In this document: piece after piece, positions 59,591 through 63,196 of the stretch | How positions within the stretch are numbered: the first letter of the stretch is position 1 | Layout of the letters: the number at the start of each line of letters is the position of its first letter | Origin: Butyrivibrio sp. | Lineage (GTDB): Bacteria; Bacillota; Clostridia; Lachnospirales; Lachnospiraceae | Length of the DNA stretch: 64,000 nucleotides | Assembly (NCBI GenBank): GCA_015056565.1 | Contig: SVGB01000009.1 | Coordinates: 7,859-71,858 of the forward strand | Reading direction: 5' to 3' | The notes under the pieces: generated by a model | Told to the model about the DNA's origin: nothing | What the model saw: the letters and a program-made list of their open reading frames with translations, nothing else | Database searches by the model: none | Made by a program: the position numbers and the translations under genes

Positions 59591-59619
59591 TTGACAAATT
59601 ACTAGCGGATAAATATAAT
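59591..59619 (+). promoter_or_regulatory. Consensus sigma-A promoter of the non-coding transcript
   Basis: TTGACA (59591-59596), exactly 17 bases, TATAAT (59614-59619). This is the best promoter in the window; expected start near 59626. Confidence 0.9.
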
Positions 59620-59957
59620 AAAACCATCAAGAGATACTTATAAGATATCCAATTACTTCTCACCTGGTATATAGAGCAAACAGAGCCGGGGGGAGAAAGA
59701 AAGGCAGGTACACTCCAAAGGGATAGGTAATTAAAATATTCAGAGAAAGGATGGTACGGTCCACCAAACTAAGTAGATCAGTTTTATAAAAAGTTTTAAG
59801 AAATACCAGTTACACCAGATTTTCAAGTAATACCACTACAGCGCTTCAAGTACATGATAAGTGGTTCGGACAAGTAAAAATTCGTGAACTTGCAACCACA
59901 CGCATATGAATGCAAAAGTTAATGGAAAGATGAGGCTGAGAATTGGAGGAAGGTCCG

Positions 59958-59999
59958 TTGGACGTAATAACATTTGAATTAGATGAGTACTCGGCATAA
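59958..59999 (+). CDS. Possible 13-codon micro-ORF inside the structured RNA
   Basis: GGAGGA (59945-59950) lies 7 bases before TTG at 59958. The frame encodes MDVITFELDEYSA (start read as Met) and ends with TAA at 59997-59999, at the foot of the terminator. The start codon sits partly in the loop of a 4-bp hairpin (GTCC/GGAC). The peptide is acidic. A second short frame (ATG 59930) encodes the basic MRLRIGGRSVGRNNI but has a poor ribosome site. Translation is unproven. Confidence 0.4.
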   Translation: MDVITFELDEYSA

Positions 60000-60039
60000 G
60001 GGCAGAAGCAGGTAATATCGATGAAGCTTCTGCCCTATT
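59999..60039 (+). terminator. Terminator of the non-coding transcript
   Basis: A perfect 11-bp stem AGGGCAGAAGC (59999-60009) / GCTTCTGCCCT (60026-60036) with a 16-base loop and a short T-rich tail. Confidence 0.85.
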
Positions 60040-60109
60040 TGTATGTTTATATCTGATCATTTGTGGTATTATATTGCTCAGAAAAAGTTTTGATGGTGGG
60101 AATAAACAG

Positions 60110-61399
60110 ATGGCAAGATTAGAAGAACAGGATTTTGATGAAAAGAGGCTGGTTCGCAGACAGAGAAGGAAGAAGAGCCAGCTTATTGCATATATAATAC
60201 TGGCAGCAACCTGTCTGGTAGTATTTGGCGGATGCGCAGTTCTTATCTATTTTTTAAATGGTGTTATAAAAACCGGGGGTAAATCTGAGGAAACTGTAGC
60301 AGTTGAAGAGCAGGTAGAGGAAGAAGTAAGTCAGGTGATCGAAACGCCGGAAGTTGTTCAGGAACCTGAAGAATACACTGAGGAAGATATGCTTGGTGAC
60401 ATAGTGGGGAGCGTCATTGAAGAGCAGTCCCTTGAGGATAAGGTAGCTGGACTGTTCATCATAACTCCTGAGCAGCTAACTGGTGTGGACACAGCGGTCA
60501 AAGCTGGATCTGGCACTCAGGAGGCCCTCAGCAGCTATGCAGTTGGTGGAATAGTATATTCACCCAAGAACATCAAGAATGCTGATCAGATCAAAACGAT
60601 GCTTGATGATACAGTATCCATGAGCAAGTATCCAATCTTCACACTTCTTTCTGATCAGGGCAATATGTCCGATTCAGTAAAAGATACTTTGGCCCTTCAT
60701 CCGGATATCGATATAACAGACAGTGAGACAGCATATCAGGCTGGAACACAGGTTGGATCAGAACTATTTAAATGCGGCTTTAACAGCACAGTTGCGCCTT
60801 TGGTTGATATGACTCAGGAGGGACATTTCAGCCAAGATATAGATCTTGCCAAGGACGCTGCAGCTGGATTTGCTAAGGGACTTACAGAGTCAGGTATTCT
60901 TTCCTGCAGTTACATGTTCCCGTTAAAGGGCGATACCTTGTCAGGCATGGGAAGTAGTGATAAGAGCAAGGATGACCTGGTTTTAAACGAGTATGAGGTA
61001 TTTAAGAACGTAATTGATTCTGGCTATGCCGGAGCGATCATGGTATCTAACGTATCGCTTCCAAATGTGACAAATGACAATACTCCGGCATCTTTGTCGG
61101 ATATCATCATCACTGAGGAGCTTCGAGGGACTCTTGGCTATGACGGAATAGTCATAACAGCTCCATTAAATGAAGGAGCCATAACAGAGTACTACACATC
61201 TGGTGAAGCTGCTGTGGCTGCTATCAAGGCTGGTGCAGATATGATCTACATACCTGAGGACTTTACTGAAGCTTATAATGCTGTCCTTGAAGCCGTTTCA
61301 AGCGGAAGTATCAGTCAGGACAGATTAAACGAGTCTTTGAGGCGTATATATAGTGTTAAGTACGCTGACAGGGTAGATGAGATATCGTCCGAGAACTGA
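60110..61399 (+). CDS. Membrane-anchored GH3/NagZ-like protein, probably catalytically inactive
   Basis: About 430 residues. Basic cytoplasmic start, one membrane helix (about 27-50), an acidic Glu/Val linker (to about 100), then a GH3 TIM barrel like NagZ (EEQSLEDKVAGLFIITPEQL, AVGGIVYSPKNI, LSDQGN). The NagZ motif KHFPGHG is replaced by YMFPLKGDT, and the position of the nucleophilic Asp (normally TD) is Ala351 in VITAPLNEGAI. It may be a binding or scaffold pseudoenzyme for cell-wall fragments. ATG 60110 is preferred over the longer frame from 60074. Confidence 0.8.
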   Translation: MARLEEQDFDEKRLVRRQRRKKSQLIAYIILAATCLVVFGGCAVLIYFLNGVIKTGGKSEETVAVEEQVEEEVSQVIETPEVVQEPEEYTEEDMLGDIVGSVIEEQSLEDKVAGLFIITPEQLTGVDTAVKAGSGTQEALSSYAVGGIVYSPKNIKNADQIKTMLDDTVSMSKYPIFTLLSDQGNMSDSVKDTLALHPDIDITDSETAYQAGTQVGSELFKCGFNSTVAPLVDMTQEGHFSQDIDLAKDAAAGFAKGLTESGILSCSYMFPLKGDTLSGMGSSDKSKDDLVLNEYEVFKNVIDSGYAGAIMVSNVSLPNVTNDNTPASLSDIIITEELRGTLGYDGIVITAPLNEGAITEYYTSGEAAVAAIKAGADMIYIPEDFTEAYNAVLEAVSSGSISQDRLNESLRRIYSVKYADRVDEISSEN

Positions 61400-62398: not shown

Positions 62399-63196
62399 TC
62401 AAGGCTTTAACTCATATATGGCAGGTGATATATCAACTTTCATATACAGGTCAGCGTACTGTGAAGGAGATAAGTCTTCGATGTAGTTTTGCACAAAGTT
62501 CTTTTTGATCCCGTTCTTTATCAGGATATCTGCAGCTTTGTTGTAGGCAATAGCTGCTTCGTATTCTGTTCTGTAATTACCGATCACGTAATTGCTCTTT
62601 ATATGTATAACGGATTTATACCTTACAAAGCCTCTGAAATTATACTGTCGGACACCCATGTATCTGTTGAGAACGATGATGTTTTCGTACCTGAGGTCAT
62701 TGTGGTCGTCGTTTGCAAAGATATAGTCCCTGCCTTCAACTGCATAGCTCTTTATGCCATAGCGGGAAAGGATAGAAATCTGACTTCCGTAGTCCGCTAC
62801 AAACAGATGGTTTCCCCTCTGCATGATCTTGTGAGATGAATAGTAAAAAAGGTCATCTATATCGAACTTAAGTATATTTACAGGTGAAAGGAAGTACAGG
62901 AAATATTTCTTTTCAAGGTAGATGGGATTTGAGATGTACATTCCCTTGTCCCTGAAGTTTATAAGGCTTACAAACTTTTCAAAGGGCAGATGCATTGACT
63001 TGTTATAAGATGAGATAGTAATATTGTCATCTTCAAGGACTGCTGCTGCGTCTTTATAAACTTTGGAGGCAGTATCTGCGTCGGAAAAGCTTCCAAGAGC
63101 GATATGCTTTCCACAATATGTGATAGATGCACGAAAAGATGGCGTTCCATCCTTTAAAGTTGTGGAATATACCCCAACATATTTTTTTTTGCTCAT
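62399..63196 (-). CDS. Tandem AP2-domain protein with HNH-like centre
   Basis: 265 residues. Two AP2/ERF-like DNA-binding domains: 6-54 (YVGVYSTTLKDGTPSFRASI ... SDADTASKVYKDAA) and 179-226 (YMGVRQYNFRGFVRYKSVIH ... EYEAAIAYNKAADIL). Between them, residues 126-178 (GNHLFVADYG ... AVEGRDYIFANDDHNDLRYE NI) resemble an HNH endonuclease unit with the DHNDLRYEN end but lacking clear His pairs. It recalls AP2-HNH homing enzymes; it is probably a DNA-binding protein or degenerate nuclease. Confidence 0.75.
   Translation of the reverse strand: MSKKKYVGVYSTTLKDGTPSFRASITYCGKHIALGSFSDADTASKVYKDAAAVLEDDNITISSYNKSMHLPFEKFVSLINFRDKGMYISNPIYLEKKYFLYFLSPVNILKFDIDDLFYYSSHKIMQRGNHLFVADYGSQISILSRYGIKSYAVEGRDYIFANDDHNDLRYENIIVLNRYMGVRQYNFRGFVRYKSVIHIKSNYVIGNYRTEYEAAIAYNKAADILIKNGIKKNFVQNYIEDLSPSQYADLYMKVDISPAIYELKP

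Follow-up and report, generated by a model that had tools for sequence, protein, structure and literature searches.

The window, a 64,000-nucleotide stretch of Butyrivibrio DNA, contains more than 400 bases without an ordinary gene between a promoter-like sequence and a hairpin. The locus raises the question of whether a structured RNA is made there, whether it belongs to a known class and with what it might work. Large structured RNA classes in bacteria are few, and most of them have no known job.

A candidate RNA gene with a consensus promoter

The elements that delimit the locus are as follows.

59591–59619, plus strand: predicted promoter of the sigma-70 type, TTGACA-17-TATAAT, matching the consensus at 12/12 positions
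59626–60042, plus strand: putative RNA of about 415 nt, from aligned relatives; no Rfam match
59999–60036, plus strand: predicted terminator hairpin AGGGCAGAAGC...GCUUCUGCCCU, 11 bp, from the sequence and the stop-to-stem distances

The sequence-only reading had described this promoter, over 400 bases lacking an ordinary gene and an 11-bp terminator, and was right on each point. The longest ORF beginning with ATG, GTG or TTG within or across 59626–60040 has 74 codons and lies on the minus strand. The terminator hairpin is followed by a weak U-tract (ATTTGT), owing to which it was absent from the output of a terminator scanner. The 5′ end of the RNA was placed from the −10 box and the 3′ end from the hairpin. 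TTGACA is kept in 28/28 genus loci, the aligned relatives from the DNA search. The folding energy of the single sequence is ordinary (z = −0.85), and the case for an RNA therefore rests on comparison. By eye, the terminator stem is similar across genera (CGGGUGUCGAU...AUUGAUGCCCG; loci L108–L117 and L139–L153), beyond what a terminator needs.

The RNA family within Lachnospiraceae

A DNA search of 61 genomes gave matches in 30, of which 28 were homologous loci among the 37 genus genomes searched (that of the window included), indicating that conservation of the locus is beyond chance. The remaining two matches (L029 and L030) span 38 and 27 bases only. A pattern scan of GTDB genomes returned 73 stretches, 51 with the 3′ domain of the RNA; three Butyrivibrio stretches (L068, L075 and L090) end before this domain, and the other 19, which lack it, were taken as chance. 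With the window's own locus and ten loci from other genera included, the 3′ domain was present in 62/84 loci searched. Viral contigs yielded none with the core pattern.

Three covariance models of the 3′ domain, R1, R2 and R3, were used for the census. R1 matched 12/299 family genomes. R2 matched 24/392 order genomes and 3/196 class genomes, the latter three all in the genus of the window; its matches L136 and L138, in other families of the order, look by eye like protein-coding DNA and are still counted in the raw tally. R3 matched 28/397 family genomes, corresponding to 26/334 sampled Lachnospiraceae genera, a raw tally that still includes two matches resembling chance (L151 and L154). Within the genus, R3 matched 69/79 genomes, and 44/47 of those with completeness of 90% or more and contamination of 5% or less. 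These counts are lower bounds, as the model misses diverged members. The results suggest that the RNA family is confined to Lachnospiraceae and patchy within it; that the family is real is almost certain. In one genome (G172 C57:183439–184342; L146, L155 and L213) the RNA is duplicated in tandem, the copies lying about 750 bases from each other and the first-copy match being followed by a second stretch that resembles a Shine-Dalgarno sequence and start, ahead of the hairpin.

The RNA matches no Rfam family

Scanning the whole window with Rfam 15 (4227 families) at the covariance gathering cut-off gave only a tRNA at 2557–2630, and no match overlapping 59626–60042 was obtained up to E = 10. 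Within these library scans, the OLE model matched neither the window nor the RNA, the raiA model (RF03072) had no match in the window, and the bacterial RNase P models had none at the RNA. Nor did 6S (RF00013) match at the RNA. The earlier reading had named a match to a known Rfam family as a finding that would refute it, and none was obtained.

Descent from a known large RNA (RNase P, 6S, raiA or OLE), followed by divergence, has only the size and 'ornate' look of the present RNA in its favour. Against this reading, besides the lack of any overlapping Rfam match, a 6S match occurs elsewhere in 8/8 genus genomes, over the cut-off in 6, and RNase P-type matches (RF00011) occur elsewhere in 4/8, with 0 over the cut-off. 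The raiA model matched 0/8 genus genomes but also 0/14 control genomes. Descent from one of these RNAs is very improbable. A 6S RNA gene is present on the same contig, about 5 kb past the end of the window (G000 C26:76850–77057).

A literature search, most subscription papers being outside its scope, found no report of the RNA. By these comparisons the RNA is new, matching no curated family. The proposal of a non-coding RNA whose class is new or little known gains support at the sequence level from the lack of an Rfam match, from covariation and from the promoter box kept in all 28 genus loci, although independence of the RNA from the downstream gene is a candidate property only. To our knowledge, no structured RNA with a mini-ORF-in-terminator design has been described.

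Conserved helices and repeated modules

The following structural elements were predicted from the aligned relatives.

59657–59697, plus strand: hairpin P1, UUCUCC/GGAGAA; 3/6 pairs doubly changed; window copy one base short
59839–59938, plus strand: helix P0, CAGC (59839–59842)/GCUG (59935–59938), enclosing the 3′ domain; 3/4 pairs doubly changed
59861–59899, plus strand: helix P2, GUGGUU/AACCAC; 5/6 pairs doubly changed in 58 distinct rows
59902–59913, plus strand: hairpin P3, GCAU/AUGC; 4/4 pairs doubly changed, 100% paired
59953–59963, plus strand: hairpin P4, GUCC/GGAC, around a start codon; 98–99% paired, nearly invariant
59703–59723, plus strand: module 1, GGNAGGUANNNUCCAAAGGGA; AGGUA and UCCAAA invariant in 28/28 genus loci
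59745–59765, plus strand: module 2, GAAAGGAUGGUACGGUCCACC; judged by eye, other genera carry a similar module

Compensatory changes were found in four helices, P1, P0, P2 and P3. P1 occurs as UUCUCC/GGAGAA, UUCAGC/GCUGAA and UUCGGA/GCCGAA, and P0 as CAGC/GCUG, CAAC/GUUG and UGAC/GUCA. P4, which hardly varies, is a conserved rather than a proven helix. In alignment A4 (58 distinct rows), 96.3% of cells in the three 3′-domain helices were paired and 9/14 pairs were doubly changed; the covariation score was reached by 0/500 shuffles, and the number of further pair types was ordinary (335/500). In A5, 11/14 pairs of the 3′-domain helices were doubly changed. A4 and A5 were fitted to the model structure, while A6, a plain MAFFT alignment of the whole RNA from 25 relatives, was not. 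In A6, in which L028 is misaligned in P1 and P0, the five helices had 96.0% of cells paired and 9/24 pairs doubly changed, with covariation reached by 0/500 shuffles; sliding the partners by 1–3 columns lowered pairing to 31–43%. With MI/APC covariation, the 28-row alignment gave too much noise for pairs to be ranked.

Six helices had been proposed from the single sequence. Two of them stood, GCAT/ATGC (100% paired) and GTCC/GGAC (99%), while AATTAC/GTAATT, ACCTG/CAGGT and ACCACT/AGTGGT, with 62.9%, 39.6% and 57.3% of cells paired, were rejected. CAAGT/ACTTG had 72.7% of cells paired, with few different letters in three of its five pairs. These last four helices were jointly paired in 56.7% of cells against 53.7% in shuffles (0/500 as high); their covariation was no better than that of shuffles (93/500) and far below that of two of six slid versions. 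UUCUCC/GGAGAA, CAGC/GCUG and GUGGUU/AACCAC fit in place of the failed helices. The homologues thus do covary, as the earlier reading had proposed to check, though through partly different helices.

Three Shine-Dalgarno-like modules of the form GGNAGGUANNNUCC (GGUAC) are present in Butyrivibrio, the third being the start of a mini-ORF. In other genera, either the first or the second is usually present, as judged by eye.

A mini-ORF ending at the terminator

A short reading frame that the sequence-only reading had missed lies at the 3′ end of the RNA.

59945–59949, plus strand: Shine-Dalgarno sequence GGAGG of the mini-ORF; GGAGG/GAGGU-type ahead of the start in 79/79 loci
59958–59999, plus strand: mini-ORF with UUG start, LDVITFELDEYSA, present in 79/79 loci; UAA at 59997–59999

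In the window, the last base of the UAA lies inside the terminator stem. The comparison covered 79 loci, which are mutually related; repeats with the same peptide and the same 60 upstream bases had been removed. The start codon was UUG in 72 loci and AUG in 7, usually 8–11 nt from the Shine-Dalgarno sequence. The first in-frame stop fell between −13 and +1 from the stem in 79/79 loci, compared to 4/79 and 6/79 in the other frames, and in 63/79 it fell between −4 and +1. The loci encode 64 distinct peptides of 5–23 codons, and other genera mostly have the shortest form (MDQEV, MDSIV, LDSIV or LDSAV).

The exchange of UUG and AUG, the frame kept through changes in length and the constant Shine-Dalgarno sequence argue for translation of the mini-ORF. 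Since no peptide is conserved, it may be the act of translating that matters rather than the product. Alternatively, the mini-ORF could be untranslated, with the start, a GAY codon and the stop kept because the GUCC/GGAC hairpin and the terminator constrain them at the RNA level. The GAY codon does overlap P4, and one clade of Butyrivibrio conserves GUACUCGG even in the third positions of its codons. However, such constraints would not be expected to keep one frame open over 5–23 codons and 64 distinct peptides, nor to keep a Shine-Dalgarno sequence in every locus and allow AUG in place of UUG in seven, making this explanation quite improbable. The earlier suggestion of a long dual-function transcript may accordingly hold in its dual-function half, a small ORF being present.

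The lasting neighbour encodes an Arg-tailed GH3 protein

The gene downstream of the RNA has the following features.

60110–61399, plus strand: linked gene whose product has an Arg-rich tail, one hydrophobic (TM-like) segment and a GH3 domain (NagZ-like; PF00933, E = 1.6e-37)
60143–60181, plus strand: Arg-rich juxtamembrane motif KRLVRRQRRKKSQ of the GH3 protein, from sequence comparison

Conserved synteny with glyA had been proposed as a check. Upstream of the RNA, glyA was found in 43/52 Butyrivibrio loci (the window's own and 51 from the pattern scan) and in 0/10 loci of other genera, so that glyA fails as a functional link outside Butyrivibrio. A GH3 homologue occurred within 1200 nt downstream in 54/62 loci, including 8/10 in other genera; of the eight loci without one, three had less than 450 nt of sequence. 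The GH3 gene is usually the next gene and on the same strand. As judged from gene order, the lasting neighbour of the RNA is the gene for the downstream predicted membrane GH3 protein and not glyA. Further along the window, an ORF on the minus strand (62399–63196, 265 aa, starting MSKKKYVGVYSTTLKDG) matched no Pfam family; we presume that its product resembles an AP2-type domain.

The tail follows the pattern RRxRRxRNQIxAY (DEKRLVRRQRRKKSQLIAY in the window and, for example, KERRAYRRKRRIRNQIISY in relatives) and directly precedes the hydrophobic segment; it would lie in the cytosol, with that segment in the membrane. It was present in 53/54 Butyrivibrio GH3 rows by regular expression and by eye in the 54th (L129). 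Among rows from RNA-bearing genomes of other genera it was present in 19/23; the four exceptions are L212, truncated by the end of its contig, and L215, L216 and L217, which are second GH3 genes. Basic N-termini also occur in other GH3 proteins (L158, L161, L166, L182 and L183). A protein search with GH3 residues 1–75 found 47 proteins, all PF00933, and no other kind of tail-bearing protein among the proteins of similar length searched.

The prediction that the tail marks the presence of the RNA was tested in 114 genomes of the family (40 + 74) that are absent from the list of RNA matches; these gave 45 GH3 loci, with alignments from 44 (none for L169). The strict tail was present in five loci (L156, L160, L175, L176 and L195), and upstream of all but L156 was a diverged RNA with a mini-ORF and hairpin. 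The four mini-ORFs encode LDSEVV, LDSEF, LDSIV and LDIEV, and the model E-values of these RNAs, with filters off, were 3e-6 to 1e-3. None of the other 40 loci had a mini-ORF at a strong hairpin. A looser tail pattern matched 9/45 loci, the strict five and L166, L177, L182 and L183, and four of the nine had the RNA; none was found at L166, L182 and L183, which have basic stretches, and none adjoins L177, a close tail variant, or L198, with a weaker tail. The association of strict tail and RNA had a hypergeometric probability of 1e-4 (35 loci, strict tail only). At L156 (G082, reverse strand, 1150–1480), a promoter-like stretch and a hairpin are kept and the core of the RNA is gone, as if deleted.

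RNA and tail-bearing protein also occur together without being adjacent. The protein was encoded 1.3–6 kb downstream of the RNA in G498, G917 (a shorter protein), G267, G894 and G101. In G010, G017 and G292 its gene was on a different contig. Two genomes had the RNA and no GH3 match: G097, in which the RNA is near a contig end, and G022, which is 72% complete.

Loss of the GH3 active site in Butyrivibrio

The Asp of the ITD motif, which we take to be the GH3 nucleophile, was lost at the corresponding position in 32/53 tail-bearing Butyrivibrio rows. It was lost in 3/19 tail-bearing rows from other RNA-bearing genera and, in RNA-less genomes, in 2/33 tail-less and 1/8 tail-bearing rows. In the GH3 protein encoded in the window, GIVITAPLNEG and SYMFPLKGDT stand in place of the GIVITDALNMG and KHFPGHGDT of many relatives, and this copy probably lacks the catalytic residues. 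The membrane GH3 protein thus looks like a pseudoenzyme in many Butyrivibrio. In the rows compared, the tail outlives the active site in this genus, while most other genera keep both. Because catalytic residues are often lost while the tail stays, it seems to be the tail, and not the enzyme, that is selected in Butyrivibrio, as if an enzyme had been turned into something else.

Possible roles of the RNA and its partner

The tentative reading that we favour, with a probability of about 37%, is that the RNA works with the Arg-tailed membrane protein, as OLE RNA does with OapA. The RNA would be made from its own promoter and act with the membrane protein encoded beside or near it, whose cytosolic tail would bind it and keep it on the inner side of the membrane. 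A ribosome loaded at the 3′ end would make a peptide of 5–23 residues without fixed sequence and come to a stop at the terminator hairpin; what counts would be translation as such, for example by reporting initiation capacity or by opening or closing the 3′ hairpin. In favour of an RNA–protein complex are the covariation, the stop-at-stem geometry, the GH3 linkage, the outcome of the tail prediction, the non-adjacent pairs and the loss of Asp, and an RNA that travels with such a protein hints at a new RNA–protein machine. A complex accounts for the tail and explains why enzyme function is lost in Butyrivibrio and why the pair persists when separated, but it leaves the position of the stop codon at the terminator unexplained.

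OLE RNA, as set out in excerpts of its description, is bound by OapA, a membrane protein encoded by the next gene and bearing positive residues on its cytoplasmic face (PMC12265935). The likeness is that of a large structured Bacillota RNA with its own gene, whose commonest downstream neighbour encodes a membrane protein with a positive cytoplasmic side (same excerpts). That neighbour feature appears to be present here by analogy, with the topology read from sequence and the protein not being OapA. The present RNA differs in lacking an OLE covariance match and carrying a mini-ORF, and binding by its partner is only proposed; OapA has four TM helices, whereas the partner here has one TM-like segment and a GH3 domain. 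The raiA-motif RNA (ModT, RF03072) is likewise, in the excerpted account, a conserved structured Bacillota RNA with its own terminator; besides the missing match in the window, it differs in that those excerpts mention no mini-ORF for it (PMC11706538).

Against a complex, tail and RNA may co-occur only through one orthologous gene that keeps its own leader. Arg and Lys beside a TM helix also follow from the positive-inside rule. The tails of L177 and L198 lack an adjoining RNA, no GH3 match accompanies the RNA in G097 and G022, and the catalytic Asp is kept in most other genera (16/19). A scaffold would not need its stop codon to abut the terminator, a feature that fits better with the main rival, a somewhat unlikely one, in which the RNA is a cis-acting, translation-gated attenuator, the leader of the membrane GH3 operon. 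In leader-peptide attenuators such as tnaC, a short ORF is located near a terminator. Here a ribosome on the mini-ORF would shield the 5′ arm of the terminator so that RNA polymerase reads on, and the upstream structure would set whether the Shine-Dalgarno sequence is open. The geometry required of a short ORF able to block a terminator appears to be present, as the stop lies within 1 nt of the stem, or inside it, in 79/79 loci, and the GH3 gene is usually next on the same strand. The pyrBI attenuator offers the same likeness of a short ORF near an intrinsic terminator that a ribosome can block. As precedent for a ribosome at the stop blocking the terminator, termination in E. coli fell from about 90% to less than 10% when a stop codon was shifted so as to lie 5 bp ahead of a terminator, according to excerpts of one study (PMC4824070). 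By the same excerpts, however, terminators about 100 bp or less from a start work well, escaping a ribosome that has not yet caught up, with pausing, as in pyrBI, the exception (PMC4824070). An extended −10 box directly 3′ of the terminator in 25/64 loci, against 3.0 expected from base shuffles, also speaks against a leader, since the GH3 gene would often seem to be served by a separate promoter; the copy in the window (60040–60109) does not match the strict pattern. Moreover, the RNA is kept ahead of a long ORF on the opposite strand (L009, L010 and L111) and where other genes intervene before GH3. Unlike leader-peptide attenuators, it has about 200–600 nt with conserved structure ahead of the ORF, its peptide is unconserved, the downstream gene often has its own −10 box, and the RNA is kept without the gene.

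Another reading is a trans-acting dual-function RNA, the structured part acting on other mRNAs or the ribosome and the mini-ORF setting ribosome binding, with the GH3 neighbour a bystander. RNAIII, a structured regulatory RNA that encodes a small peptide, is of this kind, and the present RNA resembles it; its ORF differs in having 5–23 codons at the extreme 3′ end and a variable peptide. The RNA's apparent promoter and terminator, its persistence without an adjoining GH3 gene and its three Shine-Dalgarno-like GGUAC modules would fit, but the association of strict tail and RNA would then be coincidence, and this reading is unlikely. Either of the two leading mechanisms, complex or leader, would place the RNA in a known kind of system, that of an RNA with a membrane-protein partner or that of an attenuator.

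Returning to the favoured RNA–protein complex, its fullest form, in which a homologue of cell-wall hydrolases, catalytically dead in many Butyrivibrio, docks the RNA through its tail and the RNA holds a ribosome on its own 5–23-codon ORF, is distinctly doubtful; if true, translation capacity would be coupled to the cell envelope. The locus offers three handles, namely mini-ORF translation that changing one codon could abolish, a single candidate partner whose putative RNA-binding motif is the size of a peptide, and hosts that can be cultured, as named Butyrivibrio isolates are among the pattern-scan matches.
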